Part shown: one piece after another, positions 44,052 through 64,000 of the stretch
Position numbering within the stretch: the first letter of the stretch is position 1
Layout of the letters: each line of letters starts with the position of its first letter
DNA from: Lachnospiraceae bacterium
GTDB taxonomy: Bacteria > Bacillota > Clostridia > Lachnospirales > Lachnospiraceae
Length of the DNA: 64,000 bases
NCBI GenBank assembly: GCA_017431345.1
Contig: JAFRLH010000083.1
Coordinates: 99,453-163,452 of the forward strand
Direction: 5' to 3'
Program-made: the position numbers and the translations under genes
Notes under the pieces: generated by a model
Databases searched by the model: none
Seen by the model: the letters and a program-made list of their open reading frames with translations, nothing else
What the model was told of the DNA's origin: nothing

Positions 44052-44094
44052 TGTTTCCTATCCACAAAAACAAAGCGTTCGTGTGTATGCCGGT

Positions 44095-44715: not shown

Positions 44716-44769
44716 ATTGATTCACCCTGTTGTTTATTTGCTTCCAAAGGAGTTTTCTATATTCTATCA

Positions 44770-45945: not shown

Positions 45946-45964
45946 CTTGGTCTTTCTCCTGTTT

Positions 45965-47193: not shown

Positions 47194-48132
47194 TTACATC
47201 TCATTATAAAAAGGCATTGCAGGAATAGCTCCATGTCTTGTAACTGTCATGGCTGCTGTCCTGTTCGCAAACTCCATCGCTTTTCCCGGTTCGATGCCCA
47301 TACATACCGAAAAGCAGAACGCACCTATAAAGGAATCGCCTGCCCCTGTTGGGTCTACAACTTTGACGCCCTTGACAGCAGGGCTGTACAGATACTCATT
47401 CTTATATAGTATTGCTGCTCCGGCAGAGCCGAGTGTAACAATCACATTTTCAGCTCCCTTTTTATGCAAAAAAACAACTGCCTTCCTTAAAGACTCCTCA
47501 TCAAGTCTATCACCCTCTCTTACTCTAACACCTGTGAGATCGTATAATTCATGTTCATTCGGGGCAATATACTGAAGTGTTTTCAATAATTTTTCCGATA
47601 TATGAGAGGACGGAGCCGGATTCAGCATTACGGGAACACCTTCCGCCTTTGCAGCCATTGCGATCTCCTCATTTACAGCTGCCGGTATTTCATTCTGCAG
47701 AACAACCATCTTGAAATCGGCTATATCTTTCTTTACTCCCGCTATATCATTACTGCACAGCGTCATATTTGCTCCTGGTGTTACGATAATCCTGTTCTCT
47801 GCAGATCCCTGATCATTTTTTTCGAGAAGAATTGCTGCACAACCAGTGGAAACCATTTCATCAAAAACTATTCTCCCGGTATCTACTCCCTCTGAACTGA
47901 TAATATCAAGAAGTTCCTTCCCCATATTGTCCCGTCCGAGCTTGCCCAGCATCACAACAGCAGCACCTAGTCTTGCCATCTGAACTGCCTGATTAGCTCC
48001 TTTTCCACCTGCAGCTTTTCTAAACAGACTTCCCATAACCGTTTGTCCTTGCTGTGGCATTACTTTTGTTTCAAATATCATATCCATATTCAGACTGCCC
48101 GCTACTAAGATTTTGGGTTTCAGCATGATCAT
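47194..48132 (-). CDS. Ribokinase-like PfkB family sugar kinase
   Basis: Phosphorylates ribose or a related sugar or nucleoside with ATP; cytoplasmic. The 312 residues show the PfkB plan: VAGSLNMDMIFETKVMPQQG near the start, the sugar-binding KAAGGKGANQAVQMARLGA, and the second signature VVDPTGAGDSFIGAF with the catalytic Asp and anion hole. Overall it is closest to RbsK. Start at the first or third codon (MIML); GGAG fits the third better. A terminator-like hairpin separates it from the upstream gene pair, so expression may be reduced. Confidence 0.88.
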   Translation of the reverse strand: MIMLKPKILVAGSLNMDMIFETKVMPQQGQTVMGSLFRKAAGGKGANQAVQMARLGAAVVMLGKLGRDNMGKELLDIISSEGVDTGRIVFDEMVSTGCAAILLEKNDQGSAENRIIVTPGANMTLCSNDIAGVKKDIADFKMVVLQNEIPAAVNEEIAMAAKAEGVPVMLNPAPSSHISEKLLKTLQYIAPNEHELYDLTGVRVREGDRLDEESLRKAVVFLHKKGAENVIVTLGSAGAAILYKNEYLYSPAVKGVKVVDPTGAGDSFIGAFCFSVCMGIEPGKAMEFANRTAAMTVTRHGAIPAMPFYNEM

Positions 48133-48200: not shown

Positions 48201-48776
48201 TTATTCCTTGACGATGCCGCATTCTTTTGCAAGCAACATCATATCCTCGGGAATAGCATCTCCGTTGATTGCAGGGAAAACTTTTCCATAATAGTCCCAA
48301 GGGAATACCGTGTACATCCAGAATCCAATACGATTAATATACTTATAGTAGCTCCAAAGAAGATTATACATATCTTCTTTGGTCTGGATGCTGTCATATG
48401 CATCTACGATCATGAAAAAGAAGTCGCAGATTTTAGGCAAATTAAGCCAAGCAGCAGGGCATTTGCTGTCTTTTCCCAAATTTCCTCCAAGCACAATGAC
48501 CTCATCATGATACATATTATAGAACAGACGTTTGAAGCACCCTAACGTCATCTCTTCGTCAAACAGTGTCTCATAGAAAGGATATTCAATAAGCAGCCAG
48601 CCGATTCCCTCGACATCACTCAGCATAAAGAAAAGATTTCCAAATGCCTGTCCGTCTGTACCAGCACCACTCGGGAAAATACCCTTTTTGCCCAATGTGA
48701 TTTCCGCGGGCTCATCAAACCAGATCTTATCTATTTCGGCTTCAATAACTTCTTTGACATCGCGCCAGTCTCTCAT
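48201..48776 (-). CDS. Uncharacterised Trp-rich protein, copy A (partner of DUF3830)
   Basis: Soluble protein of 191 residues from ATG 48776 (GAGGAGG upstream). I do not recognise a named family. It is clearly paralogous to copy B at 55885-56436: shared KIWFDEP, GIFPSGAGTDGQ, CPAAWLNLP, YDSI..KED and a late Trp/Tyr-rich YINRIGFWMYTVFPWDY. The length and the pairing with an upstream DUF3830 gene are the same in both copies, which suggests an obligate partner or second subunit. No signal peptide or membrane segment. Confidence 0.7.
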   Translation of the reverse strand: MRDWRDVKEVIEAEIDKIWFDEPAEITLGKKGIFPSGAGTDGQAFGNLFFMLSDVEGIGWLLIEYPFYETLFDEEMTLGCFKRLFYNMYHDEVIVLGGNLGKDSKCPAAWLNLPKICDFFFMIVDAYDSIQTKEDMYNLLWSYYKYINRIGFWMYTVFPWDYYGKVFPAINGDAIPEDMMLLAKECGIVKE

Positions 48777-48780
48777 CTGA

Positions 48781-49227
48781 TTAAGCCTCCTCTCTCTCAA
48801 ATACAAGATATGCCATCTTGTGATATGTATAGTTATGAAGCCAGATATCATAACAGGCTTCGCAGTATTGATCCATATCTTCCGGGATGACTTTTGCTGT
48901 CAGGGGACCGCTAGGGCTCAGCGGCTCTGTGGGATCTCCATAGATCATAAAGAAATTCCAGCCGTTTCTGAAATAGATTTCACCAGCGTGTGTGTCCGTA
49001 AGCATAAATCCTTCTTTTGCCGGAGCTTTTTCGATTTCCATTGGATTTTTAGGGGGACGCGGAACTGCAAGATACCCTCTCCCTGTGGATACGGTATGCT
49101 GGCAGACAGCTTTTGTGGGTTTTTCAAGGTATTTCCACATCAGCTCGGAACCGTAAGGCTCTTCCGCGTCATTTACCACAGCATGCGCGACAAAGCCATT
49201 CGGAAATGTTACTTTGATCCTTCTCAT
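48781..49227 (-). CDS. DUF3830 family cyclophilin-like protein, copy A
   Basis: Protein of 148 residues from ATG 49227 (GGAGGT upstream). It opens MRRIKVTFPNGFVAHAVVND, as DUF3830 proteins do, and ends CYDIWLHNYTYHKMAYLVFE. Solved members of this family have a cyclophilin-like barrel; the reaction is unknown, and relatives are often encoded beside hydantoin, pyrimidine or amide catabolism genes. It is paralogous to copy B (56461-56898). The stop codon lies 4 bases from the start of the Trp-rich partner. Confidence 0.8.
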   Translation of the reverse strand: MRRIKVTFPNGFVAHAVVNDAEEPYGSELMWKYLEKPTKAVCQHTVSTGRGYLAVPRPPKNPMEIEKAPAKEGFMLTDTHAGEIYFRNGWNFFMIYGDPTEPLSPSGPLTAKVIPEDMDQYCEACYDIWLHNYTYHKMAYLVFEREEA

Positions 49228-49361
49228 GAATACTACCTCCTTCAACAGCAGTGTTTATATCTTTCACGGAAACGTTGCCCCGTGCAGACGCTCTTAATGA
49301 TATAACAATCATACCCTTTTAACTTTACTTTAGGTCAATATCGTTTTCCTGTTGAAAAGCG

Positions 49362-49394
49362 AAAAATGGTAAAGCATACTATATTTTTTACCAT
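49362..49394 (-). terminator. Terminator of the MATE gene
   Basis: On the minus strand ATGGTAAA, a 13-base loop, TTTACCAT, then TTTTTC. The MATE stop codon is inside the stem. Confidence 0.7.
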
Positions 49395-50743
49395 GCTCTT
49401 TTCTGTTTGATTACTGACTGTACATTTATATCCTTCTTAAAGCACCTCGTCATATATATAATTGTTGCGGTCGTCCAGCCTGCCACCTCACTTATGGGAA
49501 CTGCAGTAAAACCAATAATTCTATAGAGAGAATAGATTGTCACGACCCTGATCACGAGTGCTGCTGTATTACCGATTACAGGAATACTTACTTTTTCATA
49601 CCCTTGCAGCAGTCCAAGTGCAGCACATTCAAGTGAAAACACCGGATAGAAAATACAGAAAGTAAGAAGCAGTCTTGCTGCATACCATGCAGTCTCTTCG
49701 GTAACACTGAACCAACCGATCATCTGCCTGTTATACAGAAAAAGCATAATGCTTACGAATACCGAAAATATTACAGATATTCCTGCACCGCACCAGAATC
49801 CTGACACTGCGCGTATCTTTTTTCCTGCGCTTCTGTTCTGTGCTGCAAATGTTGTTATTGCTGTTCCAACATTGGTCACAGAAAGCATGATCATGGTATC
49901 GATCTGATAGGCAGTTGTTATACCTGCAACAGCTGCGGTACCAAAGGAATATATGGCATACTTTGACAACAAACTTCCCAGCGGAAGAATCATCCGCTGC
50001 AGTCCAATCGGCAGTCCAAGCTTCAGCCCCGGCAGAAGAGCATCTCTCCCAGGCATCATATCCTTTATTGAAAACTTCAGCAGATCATGTGCAGCCATTA
50101 TTCTGATAAACAAATAAAGACACGCAGTTGCCTGTGCCGCCACTGATGCGGTTGCCAGTCCTCCTACTCCCATTCCGGCAAAGCTTATAAGCATGATATC
50201 AAGCACGATATTTGTCACTGCTGATGCAATAACTCCAATCATTGCATCACGACTGTTACCAATACCGCGAAGGAACGCCGCAAAAAGGCTGTACATCGCC
50301 TGAAAAGGAATTCCGGCGAACACTATGCGGCTATACAACAACGCGTCCGCCATTATGTCATCCGGCACGTTCATAAAATGAAGGATTTGTCTCATAAAGA
50401 CTATTCCGGCAAGGGAAATGATCAAAGAGACCAGACACATAAAAGACGAGAAACCTCCGGTCAGAGAATGAATCTCAGACAGATGTTCGTCTCCTTCTCC
50501 ATAGATCTTGGCTATCAGAATATTTGCACCTGCTGCAATACCATTTACTCCATTCAGCAAAAGTATAACCGTACCTGCATTAGCTCCTGCCGCAGCAATG
50601 GCACGGTCTCCAAGGAAATATCCGGCAATGATCAGGTCTGCCATATAATAGAACTGCTGAAGCATCGCGCCCAATATCATAGGCACTGCAAATACCAGCA
50701 ATACCTTCAGGATATTTCCACTTGTCATTCTTGCAGTCTTCAA
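49388..50743 (-). CDS. MATE family efflux transporter
   Basis: Na+- or H+-coupled multidrug or metabolite exporter, 451 residues with about twelve membrane segments in two repeats. Typical pieces are LLVFAVPMILGAMLQQFYYMAD at the start (MATE proteins begin IPMILGNLLQQLYNLVD-like) and ILGQ-like helices later. The start is TTG 50743, with GGCGG nearby, or ATG 50728. It follows dhaL on the same strand, 118 bases away. Its place in the locus could mean export of a by-product. Confidence 0.9.
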   Translation of the reverse strand: MKTARMTSGNILKVLLVFAVPMILGAMLQQFYYMADLIIAGYFLGDRAIAAAGANAGTVILLLNGVNGIAAGANILIAKIYGEGDEHLSEIHSLTGGFSSFMCLVSLIISLAGIVFMRQILHFMNVPDDIMADALLYSRIVFAGIPFQAMYSLFAAFLRGIGNSRDAMIGVIASAVTNIVLDIMLISFAGMGVGGLATASVAAQATACLYLFIRIMAAHDLLKFSIKDMMPGRDALLPGLKLGLPIGLQRMILPLGSLLSKYAIYSFGTAAVAGITTAYQIDTMIMLSVTNVGTAITTFAAQNRSAGKKIRAVSGFWCGAGISVIFSVFVSIMLFLYNRQMIGWFSVTEETAWYAARLLLTFCIFYPVFSLECAALGLLQGYEKVSIPVIGNTAALVIRVVTIYSLYRIIGFTAVPISEVAGWTTATIIYMTRCFKKDINVQSVIKQKRAW

Positions 50744-50861: not shown

Positions 50862-51500
50862 CTATTTTACAGCTTCACACTCTGCAATAGTTTTTATGAT
50901 CAGCGCAGCTGCTACAGATCCGGGGTCCAGAAGGCTTCTTGAATCTTCACCTCTTCTTGCTGCTCTGCCCCATACTGCAAGCATGCCTACCGTAGAGTCA
51001 GATCCTTTTTTCGCTGCTTCAGCAGCCCTTAGGAGCATTTCTTTCGAATCTTCTTCTTTTTCAATCTGTTTCATTACCTGAACTGCCGGATCAAATCCAT
51101 CCAGGAATGTTTTCTCCCCGACTTTAGACTTTCCGATTTTTATAATTCCCTGTTCGAAAGCGTCCAGGAAAATCGCGATATCCATGCCGGACATTTCCGT
51201 TTTCCCCTTAAACACCTTTCCTGCCTGCATGAATCCAGACGAAATAAGTGTCCCAAGACTCGATGAAGCATGGGCATTCATGGTCTTTCCTGCATTGTAG
51301 AACAGCTTTCCAAGATCAGTCTCTTCGGGGTTTGTTTTCACATAATTATTAACAGCCCCGAATCCATCTGTCATGGTTATTCCCAGATCCCCGTCTCCCA
51401 CGACTCCATCAAGCTTTATAAGATATTCCCTGTTCTCTTTCATAACCTTTTCCAGGTCGTCAAAAATAACCGCAAATTCTGCTGCTGTCAGTTTCATCAT
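50862..51500 (-). CDS. DhaL-type ADP/ATP-binding subunit of a dihydroxyacetone-like kinase
   Basis: Nucleotide-binding subunit that phosphorylates the ketose bound on DhaK. The 212 residues include GVVGDGDLGITMTDGF, the Asp-rich Mg/nucleotide motif, and HASSSLGTLISSGFM plus GSDSTVGMLAVWGRAA, all typical of DhaL. No DhaM (PTS phosphodonor) is present nearby, so an ATP-dependent reaction, as in erythrulose-type kinases, is likely. It lies 10 bases after dhaK. Confidence 0.92.
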   Translation of the reverse strand: MMKLTAAEFAVIFDDLEKVMKENREYLIKLDGVVGDGDLGITMTDGFGAVNNYVKTNPEETDLGKLFYNAGKTMNAHASSSLGTLISSGFMQAGKVFKGKTEMSGMDIAIFLDAFEQGIIKIGKSKVGEKTFLDGFDPAVQVMKQIEKEEDSKEMLLRAAEAAKKGSDSTVGMLAVWGRAARRGEDSRSLLDPGSVAAALIIKTIAECEAVK

Positions 51501-51510
51501 GCCCCCTATT

Positions 51511-52509
51511 CTACAGCTGCAGCTGTGTAAAGAATGGTGTGTTCGCAGGACGGCACAAATACTTCTTCAGTTCTGCATCAAGCTTAAAGAGCGATATAGA
51601 CATTCCTGCCATTTCCATTGAAGTCGCGTACTCCCCTGTGTAAACTTTAAAAATCTTTATCCCTTTTTCAGAAAGAACTTCGTGTACCCTGTTATAGCTT
51701 ACATACTGTTCCTCAAGCGGAGTGGCTCCAAGCCCATTCATCAATACAGCAACCTCGTCGCCTTCCTGAAGATCCATGTCAGCAAGCACAGGTTCAAGCA
51801 TCTCGTCAACGATCCTGTCTGCCGTATCCAGCTTTCCCCGTCTTATTCCAGCTTCACCGTGAATTCCCATCCCGATTTCCATTTCATCTTCAGCAAGTTC
51901 AAAGCTGGGGTGCCCTACTCTCGGAATGGTGCACGGTGAAAGAGCAACGCCCATTGTCGCGACATTATCAGCAGCTTTCTGCGCCAGCCTCGTGACTTCT
52001 TCAAGAGAGAGCATTTCGGCTGCTGCAGCACCAGCGACTTTATACACAAAGAAAATTCCAGCGACACCACGGCGATTCTCTTTATGATTGGAAGAGACGT
52101 CATCTCTTCCGATGACCGTGTTTACTTTAATATCATCTTCAAAATCAGCCATCTCGGCGGCCATGTCAAAATTCATGCGGTCCCCACCGTAATTCCCATA
52201 GATATAAAGCACTCCTGCTCCTGTATCAATGGCTTTCGTGACCTCATGCATTTGCTCCGCACTTGAAGACTGAAACACTTCTCCAATGCTACAGCCATCC
52301 AGCATTCCGTCCCCAACATACCCCAGAAAAAGAGGGAGATGTCCACTGCCGCCACCGGTCGCCAAACCTACCTTGCCGGGAGTAATATTCTTTTTAACGA
52401 GGGAGTGGATGTCGTCATTTACATATGTATAAACATCCGAATGTGCCTTGTAGAGACCAGTGAGCATATCCTTGATAAATGTATCCGGTGAATTGAGAAT
52501 CTTTTTCAT
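51511..52509 (-). CDS. DhaK-type substrate-binding subunit of a dihydroxyacetone-like kinase
   Basis: Binds a small ketose through a covalent hemiaminal to histidine. The 332 residues start with KKILNSPDTFIKDMLTGLYKAH, contain ATGGGSGHLPLFLGYVG, NYGGDRMNF, and the substrate His in EIGMGIHGEAGIRR. The length is normal. The true substrate may be dihydroxyacetone, erythrulose or another C3-C4 ketose released by the locus. Co-transcribed with dhaL and placed 27 bases after the permease gene. Confidence 0.92.
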   Translation of the reverse strand: MKKILNSPDTFIKDMLTGLYKAHSDVYTYVNDDIHSLVKKNITPGKVGLATGGGSGHLPLFLGYVGDGMLDGCSIGEVFQSSSAEQMHEVTKAIDTGAGVLYIYGNYGGDRMNFDMAAEMADFEDDIKVNTVIGRDDVSSNHKENRRGVAGIFFVYKVAGAAAAEMLSLEEVTRLAQKAADNVATMGVALSPCTIPRVGHPSFELAEDEMEIGMGIHGEAGIRRGKLDTADRIVDEMLEPVLADMDLQEGDEVAVLMNGLGATPLEEQYVSYNRVHEVLSEKGIKIFKVYTGEYATSMEMAGMSISLFKLDAELKKYLCRPANTPFFTQLQL

Positions 52510-52536: not shown

Positions 52537-53364
52537 TCAGCCCTTAACAGCACCTGCGGTAACCCCTTGAATGATATATTTCTGAAATATAAGATATATG
52601 ATCAGAACGGGTATCATGGATAACAGAAATACGGCAAATGCCTGATTCAGCTCATTTGCTCGTTCTCCGAGCAGATAGAACTGCACAAGCGGGATCGTTC
52701 TTTTGTCGATCTTCTGCAACAACACTACTGATACCTGGAAATCATTCCATACATTCAGGATATTTAACACAAGCGAAGTAAAGAGTATCGGTTTCATCAG
52801 CGGCAGTACCACCGCAAAGAATGTTTTGTATCTTCCGGCTCCGTCTACAAACGCAGCCTCTTCCAGTTCTCTCGGAATTCCATTTACAAATCCGGTAATA
52901 ATCAATACTGTAAAAGCTATCTGAACTCCTGACTTGACTATTACAAATCCACCCAATGTATTCACCAGTCCGTAATTCACCAGCATCTTATAAAGCGGCG
53001 TCATGATAGACTGGAAAGGAATAATCATTGCTCCCACAAAGAGATAATATACGAAGTTGTACAGCAGAGATCTCTTTCTGGCAATGATATAGGCAGCCAT
53101 TGTACAGACTATCGTTATCAGAATAATAGAAAGGCTGGTTACGATCAGGCTGTTTCCCATCACATGCCAGAATTTTGTATAGGCAATACCCTCGGTAAAA
53201 TTCTCCCAGTGAAATGTTTTAGGAAACGAAAGCCTGTCAGTTATCATTTCTGATTTTGACTTGACAGAATAAAGCATTACAAGAAAAAACGGAATCAGAA
53301 AGGTGAACATAAAAGCAATGACTACAATCTTGGCGAGAATATCCCGTATCCTGATCTTTTTCAT
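52537..53364 (-). CDS. ABC sugar-type transporter permease 2 (MalG/MsmG-like)
   Basis: Inner-membrane component of a CUT1-family importer, 275 residues, six membrane segments. The EAA loop is EEAAFVDGAGRYKTFFAVVLPLMKP (in two parts: ELEEAAFVDGAGR and FAVVLPLMKP). The N-terminus is basic with a first helix at about 10-35. Its ATG shares one base with the preceding stop (TAATG). Confidence 0.95.
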   Translation of the reverse strand: MKKIRIRDILAKIVVIAFMFTFLIPFFLVMLYSVKSKSEMITDRLSFPKTFHWENFTEGIAYTKFWHVMGNSLIVTSLSIILITIVCTMAAYIIARKRSLLYNFVYYLFVGAMIIPFQSIMTPLYKMLVNYGLVNTLGGFVIVKSGVQIAFTVLIITGFVNGIPRELEEAAFVDGAGRYKTFFAVVLPLMKPILFTSLVLNILNVWNDFQVSVVLLQKIDKRTIPLVQFYLLGERANELNQAFAVFLLSMIPVLIIYLIFQKYIIQGVTAGAVKG

Positions 53365-54263
53365 TACATCTCCACCTCCTTTGACCTGAAGAACCAGGCT
53401 GTCAGCCCGCTTATGATAAACACTGCCACTGTAAATACAACAGCCATTGCCTGTCCATATCCGGCTTTGTAATACTTAAACAGGTTGTTGTAAATCAGCA
53501 TTGCCACTGTCTCGGCAGACCGTCCCGGACCGCCTCCTGTTGCTGCCATGGGATAGTCAAACACTTTCATATTCCAACCAATCAGCAGCGTAAAATTCGT
53601 TGTGATTGATGGCACGATCAGCGGCAGTGTTACATGTTTGAATGTCTGCCACGGACTTGCGCCTTCGATCTGAGCAACCTCATAATAATCAGCCGGAATA
53701 CCCTGCAGACCCGCAATATAGATAACCATGCAGTATCCGGTAGTCGCCCAAACACAGATGAATGAAATTCCAACCATAACCCATGTCGACGAGCTGAGTG
53801 GATTAGACACACCGAATATGCCATAGAAAACATCACTGTAAATATATCTCCAGGTGAAAGATACCAGCACCAGGCTCAAACAATACGGCATAAACGCAAT
53901 CGTACGGCAGAAATTATTAAATCTTGTACTTCTTTGAAGCAGCAGTGCAAGGATCAGTCCCAATATATTCGGAAAAATTGTGGCGATGACCGTAAACACA
54001 ACCGTATTAACTGTTGCGTTTGAAAATGTTTTATCTGTAAACAATCGTATATAATTCTGAAAGCCCACATAACTGTAGGTCGGCCTGATTCCATTCCAGT
54101 TTGTAAAGGACAGCCTTACGCCCTCAAAAAAGGGGATGATAATTATCATGATGAACAGGGCCAGTGCCGGAACCAGGAAAGAAAAATCCGCTAGCTTTCT
54201 GCGAAAAATACTTACTCTTTTCCTTTGTACTCCTGTCTGCGCAGATCCCTTGTTATTATTCAT
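53364..54263 (-). CDS. ABC sugar-type transporter permease 1 (MalF/MsmF-like)
   Basis: Second membrane subunit, 299 residues with six segments. It begins with a polar tail and LADFSFLVPALALFIMIIII, then the MalF-type external loop FEGVRLSFTNW. The EAA loop is YEVAQIEGASPWQTFKHVTLP. It is separated from the binding-protein gene by 140 bases with a stable hairpin. Confidence 0.95.
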   Translation of the reverse strand: MNNNKGSAQTGVQRKRVSIFRRKLADFSFLVPALALFIMIIIIPFFEGVRLSFTNWNGIRPTYSYVGFQNYIRLFTDKTFSNATVNTVVFTVIATIFPNILGLILALLLQRSTRFNNFCRTIAFMPYCLSLVLVSFTWRYIYSDVFYGIFGVSNPLSSSTWVMVGISFICVWATTGYCMVIYIAGLQGIPADYYEVAQIEGASPWQTFKHVTLPLIVPSITTNFTLLIGWNMKVFDYPMAATGGGPGRSAETVAMLIYNNLFKYYKAGYGQAMAVVFTVAVFIISGLTAWFFRSKEVEM

Positions 54264-54403: not shown

Positions 54404-55786
54404 TTACTGAGTGATATAAGACAGCTCTTCATCCAAATCAGAAAGCGTCTGATCAATATCAGCCTCGGTCTTTCCTTCCGAAATGAAGGTATGAATCGCA
54501 GTCTTCAGCGTCGTCAGGGCTTCACCGTCATAATCCGGTACATCCGCCTTGGAGACAACCTTGCCTGCTGACACATAAGCATCAATATCTGCAAGATGCT
54601 TGTATGCCGATGTATCAACTGCAGCATCTGCTGCTGCAGAATAGCACTTGGCAGCTGCCGTCCAAATTGCCTGGCCTTCGCCGGAAGACAGGAATTTTAC
54701 ATACTCTCTGGTCATCTCGGGGTTCGGGCAGTCTGCACCAATGATGAAAACATCATCACATCCGAACCACAGCAGGTTCTCTTCAGGGTTATTGGACCAA
54801 GGGAACGGGAAAAATCCATATTCATCTGTAGATCCCGCATCTGCAGCTGCAGCCAGGATATCACCAACACTCCATCCGCCGCAGATCATCATTGGTCTTT
54901 CACCAACACCGAATCCGGCAACAGCATCACCCTGTGTACGATTTCCGTCATCAGGCGCTTTATAGGTCGTAAGTTTTGCAAGGATCTTAAACCATTCCTT
55001 TGCAAGTTCGGAATCTGCCAACTTGATCTCTCCTGATTCTGACTGTGTAAAAATGCTGTCCTCTCCCCTTACATGAGCACTTACAGTTGCGTACGAATCA
55101 AAGAAATGGAAAACCGTATTTGCACCGTTCAGCGGAACCATAAACGGATACGTTCCCTTGTCCATAAATGCATCACACACAGCAACGAATTCATCCCACG
55201 TTGTAGGAACTGATACTCCGGCTTCCTCAAACATCCTGACATTATAGAAAACGCCTTTTACCTGCCCGTCGAAAGGAACTCCATAGTATTTTCCGCCCAC
55301 CTCGGTTTCAGCAAGAAGATCAGGATTGATACCGCCAATCAAATCGTCATACTCGCTAAGATCCATCACGTAACCGGCTTCGATATACTGCTTGATGGTT
55401 CTTGGCTTAGCCTGACAGATATTGGGGGCATCCCCTGCCACGACCCGGTTCTGAAATACCGTAAGCATATCATTGGAATCCATTGCGATATACTCGAAAG
55501 AGACATTTGGATGCAGTTCCGTAAACTTCGCCTGGATCTCCTCCATGGCAGCACCAAGAGTACCCTCCGTGTTGTAGTCAAGGATACTGATCAAAACCGG
55601 CTCATCCGATGCTTCAGCAGCTTCCGTTTCCGGAGCCTCTGTTGCAGCCGCAGGTTCTGCTGCTTCTGTTTCAACTGCAGGTGCAGCAGTCGTTTCCGGT
55701 GCAGAGCTTCCTCCGCAGGCAACAAGTGACAGGATCATAGCAGTTGCCATGACCAGTGCGACGATCTTTCCCATTTTCTTTTCCAT
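54404..55786 (-). CDS. ABC transporter substrate-binding lipoprotein (family 1)
   Basis: Extracellular receptor of the CUT1 importer, 460 residues. The signal peptide ends in lipobox SLVAC, followed by an ETTAAPAVETEAAEP-like linker to about residue 60. The mature part shows the family 1 plan: TLGAAMEEIQAKFTELHPNVSFEY, GKYYGVPFDGQVKGVFYN, WDEFVAVCDAFMDKG, and SSGEGQAIWTAAAKCYSAA near the end. Aromatic residues around the expected pocket agree with a sugar or polyol moiety, but the ligand is not known. The locus context suggests a heterocycle or a glycosylated heterocycle. Confidence 0.93.
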   Translation of the reverse strand: MEKKMGKIVALVMATAMILSLVACGGSSAPETTAAPAVETEAAEPAAATEAPETEAAEASDEPVLISILDYNTEGTLGAAMEEIQAKFTELHPNVSFEYIAMDSNDMLTVFQNRVVAGDAPNICQAKPRTIKQYIEAGYVMDLSEYDDLIGGINPDLLAETEVGGKYYGVPFDGQVKGVFYNVRMFEEAGVSVPTTWDEFVAVCDAFMDKGTYPFMVPLNGANTVFHFFDSYATVSAHVRGEDSIFTQSESGEIKLADSELAKEWFKILAKLTTYKAPDDGNRTQGDAVAGFGVGERPMMICGGWSVGDILAAAADAGSTDEYGFFPFPWSNNPEENLLWFGCDDVFIIGADCPNPEMTREYVKFLSSGEGQAIWTAAAKCYSAAADAAVDTSAYKHLADIDAYVSAGKVVSKADVPDYDGEALTTLKTAIHTFISEGKTEADIDQTLSDLDEELSYITQ

Positions 55787-55884: not shown

Positions 55885-56436
55885 TTAAAGTTCCGGTTCT
55901 GAAAGCTCACACAGTTTTTCAATATATTCTTTTGTCATCTTCGGTCTGGAAAGACCAAGTTCCCAGGGAAACACATTCCAATACCACCAGTGATATCTGT
56001 TCACATAGCATTCCCAAATCCAGATCAAATCCCGGAAATCTTCCTTGTTCGTGATGCTGTCATAAGAATCTACGATATCCAGATAAAAATTCCACATCTC
56101 TTTCATATTGAACCAGGGGGCAGGGCAGTGAGGCGGGTTGTACTTTCCATAGAGCTGGCATGTCCCCTCTGTAAGAATCCTGAACATATCCTTGCACTGA
56201 TCCAGCGAATAGAGATCGCTTTTTATCATGTCATACATTGCAGGCTCGATCACTGCCCAGCCCATAGCCTGCGTATCAGAAATCAGAAACAGCTGGTTCG
56301 TAAGAACCTGTCCGCCTGTGCCAGCCCCTCCCGGAAATACTCCCATTTTGCTCATCGTGACAGCTTTTGGCTCGTCAAACCATATCTTTTTCAGTGCCTC
56401 GTAAATGGCATCCTGTACATCTTTCCAATTTTTCAT
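55885..56436 (-). CDS. Uncharacterised Trp-rich protein, copy B (partner of DUF3830)
   Basis: Protein of 183 residues from ATG 56436 (GAGGTG upstream; a GTG three codons earlier is possible). It shares with copy A the motifs KIWFDEP, GVFPGGAGTGGQ, CPAPWFNM, YDSITNKEDF and the aromatic stretch YVNRYHWWYWNVFPWEL. The Gly-rich GGAGTGGQ and conserved Cys-Pro suggest an active or ligand site, but I know no characterised relative. It sits directly between DUF3830 copy B and the binding-protein gene. Confidence 0.7.
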   Translation of the reverse strand: MKNWKDVQDAIYEALKKIWFDEPKAVTMSKMGVFPGGAGTGGQVLTNQLFLISDTQAMGWAVIEPAMYDMIKSDLYSLDQCKDMFRILTEGTCQLYGKYNPPHCPAPWFNMKEMWNFYLDIVDSYDSITNKEDFRDLIWIWECYVNRYHWWYWNVFPWELGLSRPKMTKEYIEKLCELSEPEL

Positions 56437-56460
56437 CTGTATCACCTCTTCCTTCTCTTA

Positions 56461-56898
56461 TCACGCTTCTTCAAAGCGTTCTGCTGATATGACCGCCAGC
56501 TTGTGATAGAGATAGCAGTGATACCAGACATCTTTACACGCTTCCATATACTCTGCCAGCTGCTCTTCTCTGACATGAGCGATCTCTCCCGCACCCGAGA
56601 TAAGCGGCTCTGTAAGCTCTTCGTGCATAAGGAGCAGATCAAATCCGTTCCATCCGATCATTCCGGCCAAATCACCGCAAAGAAGAAGTGGCTCTTTTGG
56701 TGCGACCATCATAAACTTCTTGTCCGGAAACGGATATGAATTGATCAGTCCACCTGTGGACCCGGTATGATGGCAAACAAAATCCTTCCTTCCATCTTTG
56801 AGAAAATTCCACAGATTCTCTTCAAGTTCTGTCTCCTTCCCGGCGAAGTCCGCCACGACCCTGCAGCCGTTTGGAAATGTTATGGCAATACTTTTCAT
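56461..56898 (-). CDS. DUF3830 family cyclophilin-like protein, copy B
   Basis: Protein of 145 residues from ATG 56898 (GGAGGA upstream). It opens MKSIAITFPNGCRVVADFAG and ends CKDVWYHCYLYHKLAVISAE, parallel to copy A. Also shared are the VCHHTGSTGG / CQHTVSTGRG block and the EEL/EDMxxYxEAC region. The pair DUF3830-partner lies inside the importer gene set, between the ATPase and binding-protein genes, which ties its function to the imported compound. Confidence 0.8.
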   Translation of the reverse strand: MKSIAITFPNGCRVVADFAGKETELEENLWNFLKDGRKDFVCHHTGSTGGLINSYPFPDKKFMMVAPKEPLLLCGDLAGMIGWNGFDLLLMHEELTEPLISGAGEIAHVREEQLAEYMEACKDVWYHCYLYHKLAVISAERFEEA

Positions 56899-56925
56899 GA
56901 TTCCTCCTGTATATCTCAACTGTTA

Positions 56926-58032
56926 TCAGTTGGTGATTACTTCTCCGGTAACTCTGTCAAACACATGAATCTTCTCTTTATCGAATGTGAACGCCGCCTG
57001 ATCTCCAGGTCTCAGTTCAGTTGCAGATTCAGTCCTTATCGTGATCTGTCTGTCTCCAAGGACAACATACAGGAATACTTCCGCTCCCAGCATCTCGTAG
57101 ACGTTTACCCTGCATTCGAACACTTCATCCCTCGGTTCATATTTACTCAATATGCAAATATCTTCCGGCCGAATTCCAAGATCTACAGCCTTTCCAACAT
57201 AGTTTCTTTTCCGAATTGCCCTGGCTTTTTCATCCGGGAGCACAATTCTTTTCCCCTCAGTCACAAGCGCGATTTTCCCATCATGCTCTTCAACCTGAAC
57301 CTCCAGAAAATTCATCTGCGGCGATCCCATAAATCCGGCAACAAACCGATTCTCAGGCTTGTCATATAGATTCCTAGGACTGTCCACCTGTTGTATCACT
57401 CCATCCTTCATGACAACAATGCGTGTGCCTAACGTCATCGCTTCGGTCTGATCATGGGTCACATAGATTATGGTAGCATTCAAGCGCTGATGCAGTTTTG
57501 CTATTTCTGTTCTCATCTGAACACGAAGTTTTGCATCAAGATTTGAAAGCGGTTCATCCATCAGAAACACCTTGGGATTCCTTACGATTGCCCTTCCCAT
57601 TGCTACCCGCTGCCGCTGACCGCCTGAGAGCATCTTGGGCTTCCTGTCAAGTAAAGAAGTAAGCTCCAGGATTTCAGCCGCTTTCTTTACTCTCTTCTCG
57701 ATCTCCTTCTTTGGAGTTCCTCTCAGCTTCAGGCCGAAAGCCATGTTCTGATAGACCGTCATATGAGGATACAAAGCATAATTCTGAAATATCATGGCGA
57801 TATCTCTGTCCTTCGGCTCCGCATCATTCATCACCTTTCCATCGATCAGCAGCTCGCCGGAAGAAATATCCTCCAATCCGGCTATCATTCTTAAAGTAGT
57901 AGATTTTCCACAGCCGGAAGGTCCCACGAAAATAATAAATTCCTTATCCTTTATATCCAATGTAAAGTCTTTAACAGCTTCAAATCCGTTCGGATACTTC
58001 TTAAAAATGTTTTTCAAGGATATCTCTGCCAT
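56926..58032 (-). CDS. ABC sugar-type transporter ATP-binding protein (MsmK/UgpC-like)
   Basis: ATPase that powers the CUT1 importer, 368 residues from ATG 58032 (GGGGAG upstream). Walker A FVGPSGCGKSTTLRMIAG, signature MLSGGQRQRVAMGRAI, Walker B KVFLMDEPLSNLDAKL and switch His in YVTHDQTEAMTLG are all intact. The C-terminal third is the regulatory TOBE/OB region (VAGFMGSPQMNF, LGIRPEDI). Having the ATPase in the same locus is notable, since many Clostridia use one shared MsmK for several importers. Confidence 0.96.
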   Translation of the reverse strand: MAEISLKNIFKKYPNGFEAVKDFTLDIKDKEFIIFVGPSGCGKSTTLRMIAGLEDISSGELLIDGKVMNDAEPKDRDIAMIFQNYALYPHMTVYQNMAFGLKLRGTPKKEIEKRVKKAAEILELTSLLDRKPKMLSGGQRQRVAMGRAIVRNPKVFLMDEPLSNLDAKLRVQMRTEIAKLHQRLNATIIYVTHDQTEAMTLGTRIVVMKDGVIQQVDSPRNLYDKPENRFVAGFMGSPQMNFLEVQVEEHDGKIALVTEGKRIVLPDEKARAIRKRNYVGKAVDLGIRPEDICILSKYEPRDEVFECRVNVYEMLGAEVFLYVVLGDRQITIRTESATELRPGDQAAFTFDKEKIHVFDRVTGEVITN

Positions 58033-58122
58033 AGTACTCCCCTTCTGCAACAGTATTTAATGCTGATTTCCAGTTGACCTTTGCACAGATTTAATTCTGC
58101 TGTTAGAATTATATTGTATTCT

Positions 58123-58221: not shown

Positions 58222-59586
58222 TTACATCAGCCTTCCGTATCCGGCTTCAGCCTTTACCTCACCATTCTCATAGATGATTTCTCCACGCAGGATTACTGTC
58301 TCTGGTTTCCCGGTCACCTTCACGCCATCCAGGAAATGGCAGATGTCCTTCGCCTTTGTATGCATCTCATCAGCTTTCAGTTCATATTCCTTATAAGGAT
58401 CCAGGATAACAAGATCTGCATCGTAACCGACTTCGATCTTTCCTTTTCCTACCAGTCCGAAAATACGAGCCGGATTCTCGCTGAGAAGTTCAACTGCTCT
58501 CTCCAGGCTGATTCTTCCGTCCTTTACAGCTTTGAAGATAAAAGCTCCTCTTGTTTCAAGCCCAGGGAATCCAGACGGTGCAACAAAAATATCCTCTTTT
58601 TTGCGTTCCTTCTCCGCAACGGTATACGGAGCATGATCACTGCCAATGGTATCTATTGATCCGTCTTCTACATATTTCCAAAGCTGTTCTACCATTTCAG
58701 GAGATCTGAGTGCCGGATTGCATTTTACGTATGTACCATATTTGTCAAGCCATGTCTCATCCATATAGAGATACTGCGGACAAGTTTCAATATAAACCTC
58801 CTGTCCCTTTGCTCTGGCTTCAAGTGCCGCCTCAACGGCTTCTGGGCTTGAGATATGTACCAAGTAGGTTCTTGCCTCTGTTGCTCTGGCTAATGTGAGA
58901 AGTTTTTTTACTGCAAGTACTTCCGTAACAGGAAGTCTGGACAGACAATGTGCTCTCGGGAATGTCATTCCTTTGCTACGCAGTTCTCTGATTCCGTTGG
59001 ATACCATATCGTTATCTTCAGTATGTGCTGCGGCAAGAAGACCAGTCGATGAGATCTCTTTCAATGCACAATACAGTTCGTATGTATTGCTGCAGCACAG
59101 ACCTTCAAATTCTTTTTCCCTGCCTTCTGGAGGCTCATGCAGGAATGTCTTAAATCCAACGATTCCAGCATCTGCCACTCGTCCGATCTGATCAAGATGG
59201 TCTCCGCCTGCAGCGCCGAGAAATGCGCCATCCACTACTGCCTGCTCCAGAAACGCATCCCTGCGGGCTTTCAGTATTTCAGGAGAATACTGCGGCGGTG
59301 TAGATATTGGATGTTCTATAATGCTCGTTGTTCCTCCTGCCGCCGCCGCACAGGTTCCTGTAAAAAAATCCTCCCTGTGTGCGCCTCCCGGATACCTGAT
59401 ATGTACATGCGGATCTACACCACCCGGCAATACATATTTTCCTGCCGCATCGATCACTCTTTCTGCATCCAGTTCATAATTGTCCGCATTAAGTCCTGTT
59501 ATCTTTCCATTTTTAACAGCAATGCTGCAGCAGACCTGAGCTCCTTTCAGTACTACCGTTGCATTTTTGACAATCAAATCCAGCAT
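58222..59586 (-). CDS. Hydantoinase / dihydropyrimidinase-family cyclic amidohydrolase
   Basis: Opens a cyclic ureide such as a hydantoin, dihydropyrimidine or allantoin. I use MLDLIVKNATVVL (ATG 59586, AAGGAGG upstream), 454 residues. The binuclear zinc site is complete: His60 and His62 in DPHVHIRYPG, carboxylated Lys146 in GFKTFLHE, His188 in AAHTEDND, His244 in LVHISSPEA and Asp317 in IGSDHAPY. The closest known groups are allantoinase, hydantoinase and dihydropyrimidinase. Next to a carbamoyl-amino-acid hydrolase it most likely makes an N-carbamoyl amino acid, perhaps N-carbamoylglutamate from hydantoin-5-propionate. Confidence 0.9.
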   Translation of the reverse strand: MLDLIVKNATVVLKGAQVCCSIAVKNGKITGLNADNYELDAERVIDAAGKYVLPGGVDPHVHIRYPGGAHREDFFTGTCAAAAGGTTSIIEHPISTPPQYSPEILKARRDAFLEQAVVDGAFLGAAGGDHLDQIGRVADAGIVGFKTFLHEPPEGREKEFEGLCCSNTYELYCALKEISSTGLLAAAHTEDNDMVSNGIRELRSKGMTFPRAHCLSRLPVTEVLAVKKLLTLARATEARTYLVHISSPEAVEAALEARAKGQEVYIETCPQYLYMDETWLDKYGTYVKCNPALRSPEMVEQLWKYVEDGSIDTIGSDHAPYTVAEKERKKEDIFVAPSGFPGLETRGAFIFKAVKDGRISLERAVELLSENPARIFGLVGKGKIEVGYDADLVILDPYKEYELKADEMHTKAKDICHFLDGVKVTGKPETVILRGEIIYENGEVKAEAGYGRLM

Positions 59587-59599
59587 TTTCCCCTCCTTA

Positions 59600-61066
59600 T
59601 TACAGACGTGTACTATTGCAACGCTTATAGCATTTGGCAAATATTTCCTTAACACCTTCACTTTCTTTCCAGGCGAGGTCATGTTCTTTACGGATCTCTT
59701 TGCGGATTTCTTTCAAGTGTTCCAAAACAGATTTCTCATCTATCGTGACCAGTCTGCCGTCCTGAAGCACTATCTTTCCGTCTACGATCACTGTATCGAC
59801 ACTGGAACCATTCTCGGAATATGTCATCACCATATCGGGATCGTCCGACATGACATACTGCTCATTTTCCGCATTCAGTATGGTGATATCAGCCTTCATT
59901 CCTTCAGCGATGATTCCTGTTTCCTGTTCCTTTTTCAGGCACCTGCTCCCATTGAATGTTGCCATCCGAAACATGTCTTTCGCTGTCAGCCATCTGGTAT
60001 AATCCGGCGTTCGAAGTTTACTGATCAGACATCCGATCTTCATGGCGTCAAAAATGTTTGCGGAATCATTTGCGCTCATATTGTCCGTGCCAAGACCAAC
60101 CGGAATTTTTTCAAGCATTTCACGAATCGGTGCAACACCGCTTCCCATCCTCAGATTGCAGGCGGGATTATGTACTGCGGTACAGCCTGAATTCTCCATA
60201 AGTTTGAGATCTTTCTCTGTTATCCAGTTGCAGTGGATCAGGACCATATTTTCGTTAAGAAGTCCAAGATCATACATATATCTGACCAGTGTTTTTCCGA
60301 AAAACATCGGTCCGGTACATTTCTGTACATATGTTTCAAGCATATGACAGGAAACAGGAACATTGTACTTCAGAGAAAGATCCCTAAACCCTTCCATCAT
60401 CTTCTGTGTACTGCGCATCGGTGCCGAAATGGAGAGACCAACTGTCGCCAATGCGTCCGTCCTGTTATATCGGTTCATGGAATCCTCCATAAATCCGATA
60501 ATATCTTCTTCCGGCGGAAAGCTTACACAGATGGCTTCCTTCATCCTGTCTGTAAACAGTTCATCTGCATAAGGGATAGTCTTTTCCATGGTAATGTTCT
60601 TTGTATGCGGACACACTACCGCACGCATGCCGATATCTTCATACGCACGCACGATCGCATCCAGACATTCCTCGTCGGTAATTCCGTTTAGCAGTACGTC
60701 ATCCATAACAGATGTGGTGCCAGAATGAAGCATCTCCATAGCCCCCAGAATCGTCCGGTAATAAACCTGATCGGGAGTATGCCTGACTCCTGAAAAAAAC
60801 GGGCGCACCACTGGCATCCATATCTCAAGCGGCATATTTTCAAGCCACGCCTTGTTAAAATTGTCATGCGAATGAAGATGCGCATTTACCAGCCCCGGTA
60901 TCACAATCTTATCGGATGCATCAATGACAACCGCATCTTTTTCATCGATATCCGCTGCTATTTTTGTTATCGTGTTTCCTGATATAAGAATATCAGTTTT
61001 TACATAACGGCTTTCACACCCCGGATAAGACGTGAGTTTTGTCAGTCCTGCTTTTATCAGATACAT
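59600..61066 (-). CDS. ATZ/TRZ-type metal-dependent amidohydrolase
   Basis: Member of the family of cytosine, guanine, SAH and chlorotriazine deaminases and hydrolases, which replace an exocyclic amino, thio or halo group on a heterocycle. The 488 residues carry His63/His65 in NAHLHSHDN, His241 in SCHMLE, His278 in LIHCNW and Asp328 in GLGTDNMS: the mononuclear site is intact. It overlaps the N-carbamoyl hydrolase gene by 10 bases and lies 13 bases before the hydantoinase gene. In ergothioneine breakdown a step is needed that turns thiohydantoin-propionate into hydantoin-propionate; this enzyme is a good candidate. Confidence 0.88.
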   Translation of the reverse strand: MYLIKAGLTKLTSYPGCESRYVKTDILISGNTITKIAADIDEKDAVVIDASDKIVIPGLVNAHLHSHDNFNKAWLENMPLEIWMPVVRPFFSGVRHTPDQVYYRTILGAMEMLHSGTTSVMDDVLLNGITDEECLDAIVRAYEDIGMRAVVCPHTKNITMEKTIPYADELFTDRMKEAICVSFPPEEDIIGFMEDSMNRYNRTDALATVGLSISAPMRSTQKMMEGFRDLSLKYNVPVSCHMLETYVQKCTGPMFFGKTLVRYMYDLGLLNENMVLIHCNWITEKDLKLMENSGCTAVHNPACNLRMGSGVAPIREMLEKIPVGLGTDNMSANDSANIFDAMKIGCLISKLRTPDYTRWLTAKDMFRMATFNGSRCLKKEQETGIIAEGMKADITILNAENEQYVMSDDPDMVMTYSENGSSVDTVIVDGKIVLQDGRLVTIDEKSVLEHLKEIRKEIRKEHDLAWKESEGVKEIFAKCYKRCNSTRL

Positions 61067-62298
61067 TTATCCGCCTCCAGCATATTTAAAACCAAAAAGT
61101 CCACAGCCTTAGCAATCTGTGAAGAATCCGAATACTCCTCCGGGCAATGGCTGTATCCATCTTTCGACGGAATAAAAATCATCATAGCCGGATTTGTCTT
61201 TGAAATGATTTTTGCGTCATGTCCTGCCCAGCTGAAAAGATGCATCATATCATCTCTTCCCGCAGCCAGTCTGTCTGCAGCTCCAATCAGATCTCTGTCA
61301 AAGCTGATTGGAGGCACATATGCATGTTCTCCGATGCTTACAGTATTTCCGTATTTTTCTGCAATACGGCCAGCTTCCTTTCGAAGCACATCCATTGCCT
61401 TTCTGATTTCTTCCTCACTGTCCGAACGCATTTCCATGACAGACCATGCTTCTCCCGGGATTACATTATGCTGATTTGGAAGAACACCAATCTTTCCGTT
61501 TGTAACAACGATTTTTCCATTGTTAACCAGCCCGTATGAATATGCTGTACAGATAAATTCCGAGAGCGCTGCAACTGCATCCTGCCTGCGGCTCATTTCC
61601 GTAGTTCCTGCATGATTTGCCTGTCCGGTAAAAGCAATTCTGGTACGCATAATTCCCACCACACCATCCACGATTGCAAAGGCTTTTCCTTTCTCAAAGA
61701 GGATAATGCCCTGTTCAGCATGCATTTCAAAAAAAGCATGATAGCGATTCTTTGCCCAACCGAAATCCTCACCGTAAACCGGTTTATCATATCTGACTGC
61801 TGCAGCGGCTTCACCCGGCGTTCTCCCTGAAGAGTCCCTGTACTGCTCAAGCCGAAGCAAAGATGTGCTGCCTGCCATATATTCACTGCCCAGACAGCCC
61901 TTTCCAAACACTCCGCCTTCCTCTTCCGCAAAAGCAATTACTTCAACCGGTCTTTCGGGAACAATGCCCGATTCTTTCAGGATTCTTACAGCCTCTATTC
62001 CTGCAATCAAACCTGTTGCTCCATCATAGGCTCCGCCGTTTATCACCGTATCAAGATGTGATCCGGTTCCCACCGGCTTTGCAGAAGAACCTGCAGGATT
62101 AAAGATCCCTGTCAGATTTCCGAATCCGTCCATTTTGACGGTCATGTCCAGCTCCTTCATCAAACATTCCACATATGTTACGGCTTCCGCCCACGCGTCA
62201 GAAAATGTCTGACGCGTGAGCCTTCCAGATTCTGAAGAAAAACGGGAAAGTTCCCGCAAATGCCGTTCTATAAGATTTTCATCTGCCTTTACGGGCAT
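61057..62298 (-). CDS. N-carbamoyl-L-amino acid hydrolase / allantoate amidohydrolase family (M20)
   Basis: Hydrolyses N-carbamoyl amino acids to the amino acid, CO2 and ammonia. I take MPVKADENLIERHL (ATG 62298, 16 bases past the preceding stop), 413 residues; an upstream ATG would overlap the previous gene. The binuclear metal site of the HyuC/AllC group is visible: His81 in TGSHLDTV, Asp92 in GGAYDGATG, Glu126-127 in AFAEEEGG, His193 in EMHAEQG and a late His in SWAGHDAK. LPNQHNVIPGE is also typical. It is one of four consecutive enzyme genes in a unit that begins with the urocanase-like gene. Confidence 0.92.
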   Translation of the reverse strand: MPVKADENLIERHLRELSRFSSESGRLTRQTFSDAWAEAVTYVECLMKELDMTVKMDGFGNLTGIFNPAGSSAKPVGTGSHLDTVINGGAYDGATGLIAGIEAVRILKESGIVPERPVEVIAFAEEEGGVFGKGCLGSEYMAGSTSLLRLEQYRDSSGRTPGEAAAAVRYDKPVYGEDFGWAKNRYHAFFEMHAEQGIILFEKGKAFAIVDGVVGIMRTRIAFTGQANHAGTTEMSRRQDAVAALSEFICTAYSYGLVNNGKIVVTNGKIGVLPNQHNVIPGEAWSVMEMRSDSEEEIRKAMDVLRKEAGRIAEKYGNTVSIGEHAYVPPISFDRDLIGAADRLAAGRDDMMHLFSWAGHDAKIISKTNPAMMIFIPSKDGYSHCPEEYSDSSQIAKAVDFLVLNMLEADKCI

Positions 62299-62314
62299 AT
62301 AAACACCATGCTTT

Positions 62315-64000
62315 CTACAGCAATTCACTGTTGTCTTCCAATACTTCCGCGCCTTCACTCTCCGGTCCTCTGGTACATTCCCTGGTCCAGAGAAGCGGTA
62401 TCTTGATTGATTCTTTTGTCAGTTTTCCTTTTCCCTCTGCAACCTCCAGTGCAGTTTTGTAACCCGCCTGTGCATGCCGGACAATTCCAATTCCGCTATC
62501 TGTAGTCATACAGACCTTCAGTCTGAATGCAGTCTCGTCCGTACCATCCGCAACCATTGTCACGCCGGTGTGATAACAATACCCCATCGAACCATTAGCC
62601 TGTATAGAGATCAGATCTGCCATGCCGGCCGCATTAAGCAAAGCATTCAGATAGACCCAGTCACTCATGTAATCACTTCCATCCTTCATCTGTTCGGTTT
62701 CAACCAAAGGATTTACGATGGAACCTGTATCAAGATTATCTCTTGTAAAAGAGACCGGACCAATCTCTCCGTTTTTCACCATCTCATTCACTCTCAATGC
62801 GAATTCTTTTCGCTGACCAAATGCCATGAAGCATATGCGTGCCGGAAGCGCTTCCACAGGAAGTTCTACACGGGCTCTGGAGATCCAATTTGTAAGGACA
62901 TCATCATTCGGGAACATTTCAAGTACCAGATCGTCCAGTCTATCCAGATCTTTCTTTTCACCGGAGAGACAGATCCATCGGAACGGCCCCCTGCCTTCAC
63001 AGAACTGAGGCCGCATGTATTTGACCATAAATCCTTCGATCTGCATTGCCTCTTCATAAGACATCCCGGCAGTCATGCATTCCTTTCTGATACTGGTACC
63101 GTATTCGAAACACTCTACGCCCATTGCATTATATTTATTCATGGCACGCAGCTGTCGAAGCATGGTTGCATATGCTTTCTCTAAATACTGTTTCAGATCG
63201 GTTTTTCTGAGTTCTTCAGCCTGTACGCCATCATATCCGCTGGGGATATAGATAGACGGATCATGGCAGGGGCACATCTCCATCAGGAGATCAGGCAGGA
63301 AATTCTTGTCGAGAGCTTCTTCAAAAATATCTGCTGCATTTCCGATCACAGCTACAGAAAGAGGCTCTCCCTTCGCAGCAGCATTTTCCGCCATTGCCCT
63401 GGCTTCGTCAAAGGAATAGACTTTTTTCTGAATGAATCCCTTTGCCATTCTTCGGTCTACAACTCTTTCGTCGGCGTCTGCAAGAATAATCACTCCGCCA
63501 GCCATCGTCGCGGCTTTTCCCTGATTGCCGCCCATTCCACCGCAGCCTGCGCTGAGAATAATATGACCTTTCATACTGGCTGTTCCAAACAGTTTCCTGG
63601 CAATGATGCAAATGATCTCATAAGTTCCCTGCAGAACACCTTGTGTTCCAATATATTCCCAGGGACCAGCAGTATACTGTCCATGACAAATCAGATTATT
63701 CTCACGCAGTTCATAGTATCTATCCCAGTTTGCCTGCACAAAGTTGGTATTTGCCATAACAACCTTAGGTGCAAACTCTGTTGTCTTAAATACTGCCACA
63801 GGCATACCGGACTGCATAACAAGAGTCTCATCATTTTCCAGTTCAGTAAGAGCCTTGTAAATGGCATGGAAGCATTCCCAGTTTCTGGCGCTCTGACCGT
63901 TTCCTCCGTAAATGATCAGATGGGAAGGGTCCTCTCCATTCTCAAGATTGTTCTCAAGCATGCGCAGCAGCGCTTCCTGCCGCCATCCTTTACATCTTAA
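62315..64000 (-). CDS. Urocanate hydratase-like enzyme with altered active-site motifs, N-terminus beyond window
   Basis: NAD-dependent hydratase of the urocanase (HutU) family; the reading frame is open to the right edge, so about 120 N-terminal residues are missing. Family blocks are clear: YGGNGQSARNWECF, ETLVMQSGMPVAVFKT, GPWEYIGTQGV, SAGCGGMGGNQGKAA (NAD loop) and FCEGRGPFRW with the catalytic Cys. Two conserved spots differ from what I remember of true HutU: the SIHHGGGVGMG loop is here SIQANGSMGYC, and RDHLD is RDNLD. This indicates a related substrate such as thiourocanate. It is first in the visible enzyme operon. Confidence 0.85.
   Translation of the reverse strand, partial: LRCKGWRQEALLRMLENNLENGEDPSHLIIYGGNGQSARNWECFHAIYKALTELENDETLVMQSGMPVAVFKTTEFAPKVVMANTNFVQANWDRYYELRENNLICHGQYTAGPWEYIGTQGVLQGTYEIICIIARKLFGTASMKGHIILSAGCGGMGGNQGKAATMAGGVIILADADERVVDRRMAKGFIQKKVYSFDEARAMAENAAAKGEPLSVAVIGNAADIFEEALDKNFLPDLLMEMCPCHDPSIYIPSGYDGVQAEELRKTDLKQYLEKAYATMLRQLRAMNKYNAMGVECFEYGTSIRKECMTAGMSYEEAMQIEGFMVKYMRPQFCEGRGPFRWICLSGEKKDLDRLDDLVLEMFPNDDVLTNWISRARVELPVEALPARICFMAFGQRKEFALRVNEMVKNGEIGPVSFTRDNLDTGSIVNPLVETEQMKDGSDYMSDWVYLNALLNAAGMADLISIQANGSMGYCYHTGVTMVADGTDETAFRLKVCMTTDSGIGIVRHAQAGYKTALEVAEGKGKLTKESIKIPLLWTRECTRGPESEGAEVLEDNSELL

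Follow-up and report, generated by a model that had tools for sequence, protein, structure and literature searches.

A five-family gene set in a Lachnospiraceae genome that may degrade a C2-substituted histidine-type amino acid to glutamate

The operon and its upstream lyase

We examined a stretch of 64,000 nucleotides from a Lachnospiraceae bacterium (positions 99,453 to 163,452 of contig JAFRLH010000083.1, assembly GCA_017431345.1; hereafter the window), whose genome (G000) is listed with 96.9% completeness and 5.14% contamination. At its right end, four consecutive genes on the minus strand encode a urocanase-family hydratase, an amidase of the M20 carbamoylase type, an ATZ/TRZ-type amidohydrolase and a hydantoinase. 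All four frames are open, the listed frames overlap by 83, 10 and 44 bases from left to right, and Pfam and NCBIfam models agree on the family of every protein, so that the gene order and families given in an initial annotation made from the sequence alone are confirmed.

The right end of the window is the end of its contig (C94), and a second contig (C60) begins with an exact copy of the window's final 141 bases. Joining the two, on the basis of this single contig-end overlap and one uninterrupted reading frame, yields a hydratase of 576 residues. The hydratase gene therefore covers 62315..64000 and runs off the window to a start at C60:186, and the start listed at 63961 is internal. Directly upstream on C60, 18 bases from this start, lies a gene for a 524-residue protein of the aromatic amino acid lyase family, after which comes a divergent MerR-type regulator. 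At L020 1971-3236 we saw a regulator of the MerR type whose long C-terminal part looks methyltransferase-like by eye.

The M20 gene (61057..62358) encodes a member of the hydantoinase/carbamoylase family (TIGR01879, 289 bits, cut-off 204) that is a putative N-carbamoylglutamate amidohydrolase. The ATZ/TRZ gene (59600..61066) would encode an enzyme removing a substituent from the imidazole C2, as judged from family models, alignment and its likeness to proteins of the Type II loci described below. The product of the last gene (58222..59682) belongs to the hydantoinase/allantoinase-type cyclic amidohydrolases, by family models and alignment, and is a candidate hydantoin-5-propionate hydrolase; its true start is probably near 59586, because the models match only from residue 32-35 onward. 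In the alignments, what we take to be the metal-ligand motifs of the hydantoinase and the M20 enzyme look intact.

The hydratase carries the motif EMCPCHDP, and has RDNLD in place of RDHLD and IQANGSMG in place of the HutU loop HHGGGVG; the lack of that loop and of the histidine had been correctly noted in the initial annotation. When 548 of its 576 residues were scanned (the first 28 being absent), it passed the broad hutU model TIGR01228 (576, cut-off 375), and stayed far under the cut-offs of the thiourocanate hydratase model NF058530 (555, cut-off 930) and of the S-methyl thiourocanate hydratase model (560, cut-off 880). We built one tree of 92 hydratase rows and a second of 36 rows picked from those 92. 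The 36-row tree separates the subfamily of the window hydratase from HutU and ErtB rows with support of 100/100, and the expectation that this protein falls outside HutU was thus borne out, although it passes the hutU model.

The upstream lyase has an intact Ala-Ser-Gly triad (ASG), named here the MIO triad after the 4-methylideneimidazole-5-one (MIO) group, and passes the hutH model (629 bits, cut-off 539). It scores 384 bits against solved histidine ammonia-lyases (HALs) and 230 bits against the ergothionase 6s7j. Lyases of the MIO type require a free alpha-amino group; a substrate bearing such a group is therefore expected, and a betaine such as ergothioneine is unlikely. A lyase just right of the window had been predicted, and one is indeed present there, but it is of the MIO type and not ergothionase-like as proposed. 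Ergothionase is described as devoid of MIO (PMC13405746).

Related loci in other bacteria

In order to find relatives of the operon, we scanned for matches to a 103-residue part of the hydratase, and the best 80 of 83 matches gave 78 loci, which we classed by the BLAST labels of their neighbour genes. Loci with at least one relative of HutI, FchA or FtcD and none of the hydantoin set were called Type I (hut-like), and those with two or more of the ATZ, hydantoinase and carbamoylase labels were called Type II. This gave 59 Type I loci, 11 Type II loci and eight of neither type. The Type II clusters (L126-L136) come from Pseudomonas, Mesorhizobium, Burkholderia and a gammaproteobacterial metagenome-assembled genome. 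All five family labels occur together in nine of the 78 loci (L128-L136), namely seven from Pseudomonas, representing six species, and two from Mesorhizobium; L126 is without a labelled lyase and L127, from Burkholderia, without a labelled hydantoinase. The five families are thus found together in loci of another phylum than that of the window, and every Type II locus (11/11) keeps an ATZ gene.

Two active-site positions vary with gene context. The hydratase loop residue is Gly in the window and in all 11 Type II loci, and Tyr in 59/59 readable Type I hydratases (one gap, one locus without); among loci of neither type it is Tyr in five and Gly in one. The lyase site presumably equivalent to HAL His-83 is His in the window operon's lyase and in all nine readable Type II lyases (one gap, one locus without). 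At the same site, 39 Type I lyases carry Asp (25) or Cys (14), and one of the Cys lyases is MIO-less. This histidine distinguishes the window's lyase from those of Type I but, being canonical as well, does not distinguish it from histidine lyases.

The window ATZ protein is likewise closest to those of the Type II clusters. In 11 genomes it scores 232-292 bits with six of seven cluster ATZs and at most 150 bits with matches outside the clusters, and the stretches HSHD and PLEIWM are common to most of the cluster proteins and the window's. It matches the hutF model at 2.4e-19 and the hutI model weakly (62 of 298 bits). The likeness to Type II thus comprises the five families (all labelled in 9/11 loci), an MIO lyase with His, an RDNLD hydratase with Gly and a related ATZ.

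The late enzymes differ. In the Pseudomonas salomonii locus (L130), the sole Type II locus scanned with these models, the hydantoinase passes the ErtD model (688, cut-off 600) and the carbamoylase the ErtE model (616, cut-off 520), whereas the corresponding window proteins share only about 30% identity with their Type II counterparts. Further, an amino-acid-type binding protein adjoins the P. salomonii cluster, whereas the window has a sugar-type importer. The window operon would thus work like the Type II set, yet it appears to be no strict member of it, because its late enzymes are not of the ErtD/ErtE type, and its hydantoinase and carbamoylase were probably recruited separately.

In the window's own lineage, we found no hydratase of this subfamily in 10 other genomes of the genus, most of which are incomplete, none in 396 other genomes of the family, and one among 390 other genomes of the class (G353), in a locus (matching L074) that has a HutI gene and no ATZ, hydantoinase or carbamoylase label. 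A search of open-licence PubMed Central papers found neither the Type II set named nor anything on the window's gene set, either of which may have been published elsewhere.

The 59 Type I loci (among L059-L123) combine a further urocanase with lyases that have Asp or Cys for the imidazole-site His. Perhaps they serve N-methylhistidine breakdown, which is a guess. MIO-less lyases that are 81% identical to each other lie near Type I hydratases at L066 4825-6372 and L073 3506-5053.

Proposed pathway and competing substrates

We consider it moderately likely that the operon degrades to glutamate a histidine-type amino acid whose alpha-amino group is free and whose imidazole C2 bears a heteroatom group (X). 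The upstream MIO ammonia-lyase would release ammonia to give 2-X-urocanate, the hydratase would convert this to 2-X-imidazolone-propionate, and the ATZ/TRZ amidohydrolase would swap X for oxygen, giving hydantoin-5-propionate. The hydantoinase would then open the ring to N-carbamoylglutamate, from which the M20 enzyme would form glutamate, CO2 and ammonia. An amino or substituted amino group is the most likely X, and a thiol is possible. The protein families, the gene order, the motifs, the MIO triad, the co-occurrence of the genes and the separate hut genes are what suggest each reaction and the nature of X, and the last two steps rest on context, because the window hydantoinase and carbamoylase are so distant from those of Type II. 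The earlier idea that a urocanate analogue is the substrate we rate as likely.

Several observations weigh against this pathway. Pseudomonas supplies seven of the 11 Type II loci, so that few independent lineages stand behind the set, and the seventh cluster ATZ (G600) has only 134 bits with the window ATZ. The window hydantoinase is below both ErtD cut-offs (326 of 650; 255 of 600) and the M20 enzyme below that of ErtE (320 of 520). In the 36-row tree, the window hydratase joins Type I on a long branch with support of 97/99. Neither a grouping of the window with Type II (approximately unbiased test, p-AU 0.162) nor one that unites the two types and leaves the window out (p-AU 0.262) is rejected there. 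The 92-row tree, in which rows are labelled Type I or II by locus number and L124, with a context of neither type, is grouped with II, does not resolve the place of the window hydratase between the two types. The hydratase shares 56-64% identity with Type I hydratases and 53-56% with those of Type II, and the lyase 50-57% with many Type I lyases, 39-45% with others of Type I and 40-44% with Type II. As both proteins are nearer Type I by sequence, and the hydratase also in the 36-row tree, the Gly and the ATZ partner common to the window and Type II may be convergent. Histidine lyases, too, canonically have His at the lyase site, and the other three lyases seen in the genome carry it as well, so that the substrate may be plain histidine. 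S-Me-THD, the desulfurase family of ergothioneine clusters, is present in one Type II genome (G601) and in C. symbiosum. Finally, we know of no abundant natural substrate of the proposed kind.

The rest of the genome bears on the alternatives. On another contig (C48) we found HutU (451, cut-off 375), HutI (490, cut-off 298) and FtcD (432, cut-off 221), together with an FTCD_C-family protein (FchA model 180, cut-off 275); this separate set agrees with the earlier view that the operon differs from the ordinary histidine route. About 3 kb from these hut genes, a MIO-less lyase gene is followed by genes for xanthine-dehydrogenase-like large, iron-sulfur and FAD subunits (C48:30718-35962; L228 10718-15962; XdhA model 552, cut-off 780). 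The idea that this lyase is an ergothionase of the Treponema denticola type found no support, as 6s7j is not its nearest match (182 bits, versus 316 and 287 to HALs). The same contig holds tandem histidine-ammonia-lyase-like genes that are 77% identical, the second with an incomplete MIO motif (C48:58446-61604; L229). Outside the operon the genome has at least three more lyases, this being the count in the 410419 bases searched (some of them overlapping) out of 3.27 Mb.

Ergothioneine clusters offer a direct comparison. In three of 120 Burkholderiaceae genomes a hydratase exceeds the thiourocanate cut-off (L188-L190), and all three genomes have S-Me-THD. In the L190 cluster the hydratase is accompanied by a lyase without ASG, a transporter that by eye is of the major facilitator type, and a member of the S-Me-THD family. 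The hydantoinase of this cluster shares 72% identity with the P. salomonii hydantoinase; between the L188 and L189 carbamoylases and the P. salomonii carbamoylase the figure is about 68%. These clusters share with the window the aromatic amino acid lyase family, a urocanase-family hydratase, and the hydantoinase and carbamoylase types, but they have their own lyase without ASG, a hydratase above 930 bits, S-Me-THD rather than ATZ/TRZ, and late enzymes of the ErtD/ErtE type. S-Me-THD had no match in G000, in P. indolicus or in nine of 10 Type II genomes. The window's five families thus appear to form a catabolic set that resembles the ergothioneine route without belonging to it.

Ergothioneine itself, the substrate proposed in the initial annotation, is therefore set aside as highly unlikely. 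The families fit the known route except for the kinds of lyase and desulfurase, and the ErtD and ErtE models are matched, if below cut-off; against this stand the MIO lyase, the hydratase scores, the missing S-Me-THD and the alternative candidate locus on C48. In the gut route of ergothioneine breakdown, an enzyme homologous to xanthine oxidase is reported to cleave the C-S bond (Feng et al.; PMC12771579, PMC13405746). That pathway resembles ours in being found in an anaerobe and in passing through a urocanate analogue, but the candidate genes for it in this genome are on C48 and not in the window. Since a MIO-less lyase next to xanthine-dehydrogenase-like subunits fits what is described of the gut route, C48 is a more plausible site of ergothioneine breakdown than the window operon.

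Strongest among the alternatives, though unlikely, is a second route of the hut type that would serve histidine or an N-methylhistidine. In it the hydantoinase would open the imidazolone, the ATZ enzyme would take formiminoglutamate as HutF does, and formylglutamate would be split by the M20 enzyme. The relation of HutF to the ATZ enzyme, the canonical His kept in the lyase and the fact that the nearest hydratases adjoin relatives of HutI, FchA and FtcD are all in line with this. However, the HutU, HutI and FtcD models are already matched at C48, none of the operon's genes passes the hutI or FtcD models, and the hydantoinase and carbamoylase of P. salomonii pass ErtD and ErtE; moreover, in 23 of the 24 genomes checked there is another urocanase-family gene that falls outside the subfamily, urocanase alone having been checked. 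We give less credence still to 2-oxohistidine breakdown, in which the lyase and hydratase would lead directly to hydantoin-5-propionate and the ATZ enzyme would serve another substrate. Its chemistry needs no leaving group, and the hydantoinase and carbamoylase types are present, but an ATZ gene kept throughout Type II is probably needed, and we regard this reading as very unlikely. Breakdown of a C2-substituted histidine-type amino acid remains the reading that we prefer.

A low-GC island with Cucumopine_C pairs

The operon is part of a region of low GC content, which is 0.40-0.475 over 22 consecutive 1-kb segments (about 46 to 68 kb of the joined sequence), with borders at 0.56 and 0.53. Of 549 other 1-kb segments of the genome, 10% have a GC content under 0.47, and no more than nine in a row stay below 0.495, as measured on 40 stretches of at most 20 kb, in which a longer low-GC run could not show fully. 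GC at third codon positions is 0.37-0.53 in the 17 island genes, compared to a median of 0.61 (10th percentile 0.54) in 324 mechanically chosen open reading frames. Since the ABC genes, kinases, MATE transporter and Cucumopine_C pairs share composition and strand, the island is suggested to be one acquired unit. Promoter- and terminator-like sites are no commoner than in shuffled sequence (terminator-like, 12 versus 12.1).

All further island genes described here are on the minus strand. An ABC ATPase of the UgpC/MalK type (56926..58050, by Pfam and NCBIfam), with a 171-base gap upstream of its gene, is accompanied by a solute-binding protein (54404..55786, by family model), whose nearest solved relatives are sugar-binding, and by two permeases (53364..54263 and 52537..53364). 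There follow DhaK-type (Dak1; 51511..52509; dhaK1 377, cut-off 406) and DhaL-type (Dak2; 50862..51500; 121, cut-off 138) kinase subunits, a MATE transporter (49388..50743) and a ribokinase-like PfkB kinase (47194..48132; 296, cut-off 299.65), just upstream of which is one of the terminator-like hairpins.

Two gene pairs are interspersed among these. Each joins a Cucumopine_C helical-bundle protein (PF18631; copy A, 55885..56445; copy B, 48201..48851; 38% identical) to a small protein without a Pfam or NCBIfam match in copy A (152 residues, 56461..56919), which is 41% identical to its copy B (154 residues, 48781..49245). Both Cucumopine_C copies are over the PF18631 cut-off, and their profile matches 3x27, whose entry reads cucumopine synthase and which we take to be McbB, at 5.9e-7. 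The top two matches of a profile of both small proteins are Pictet-Spenglerase-like chains (E 0.43 for 9uwb, and 0.48), with unrelated chains from 0.73; the copy A small protein searched alone gave no Pictet-Spenglerase-like match. It is possible, as a lead, that the pairs are split Pictet-Spenglerase-like enzymes, with the small protein as the proposed barrel half. They share the helical-bundle domain with Pictet-Spenglerases of the cucumopine synthase/McbB type, but here the bundle is on its own gene, in two copies and beside catabolic genes, and the barrel half is uncertain. The window genome is alone in having Cucumopine_C over cut-off among 200 genomes of the family and among 391 of the class, with one sub-threshold match besides in each set. 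A search of G353 that had no match anywhere gave none for Cucumopine_C, and a contig scan with two narrow peptide patterns found no relatives of the pairs.

Taken as a whole, the 22-kb island might be one acquired locus for the uptake and cleavage of a conjugate in which an imidazole amino acid is joined to a sugar or another carbonyl compound, with the Pictet-Spenglerase-like pairs working in reverse, the kinases taking the sugar and the five enzymes taking the amino acid to glutamate. We consider this quite unlikely; if true, it would give the cucumopine-synthase family a catabolic role.

Elsewhere in the window, a surface-type protein of 2217 residues has SpaA domains and an LPSTG-like end (18099-24752), and three segments (25524-26498, 28028-30841 and 42886-46056) encode a protein of molybdenum cofactor synthesis (Mob_synth_C), together with genes that by eye resemble MobA and molybdate-type uptake systems.

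Standard models alone would call the operon's lyase HutH and its hydratase HutU, as both exceed those cut-offs. If the proposed pathway is correct, bacteria would degrade a further class of imidazole amino acids beside histidine and ergothioneine, and the two context-dependent active-site positions, together with an ATZ/TRZ enzyme in place of a desulfurase, make the question of its substrate testable.

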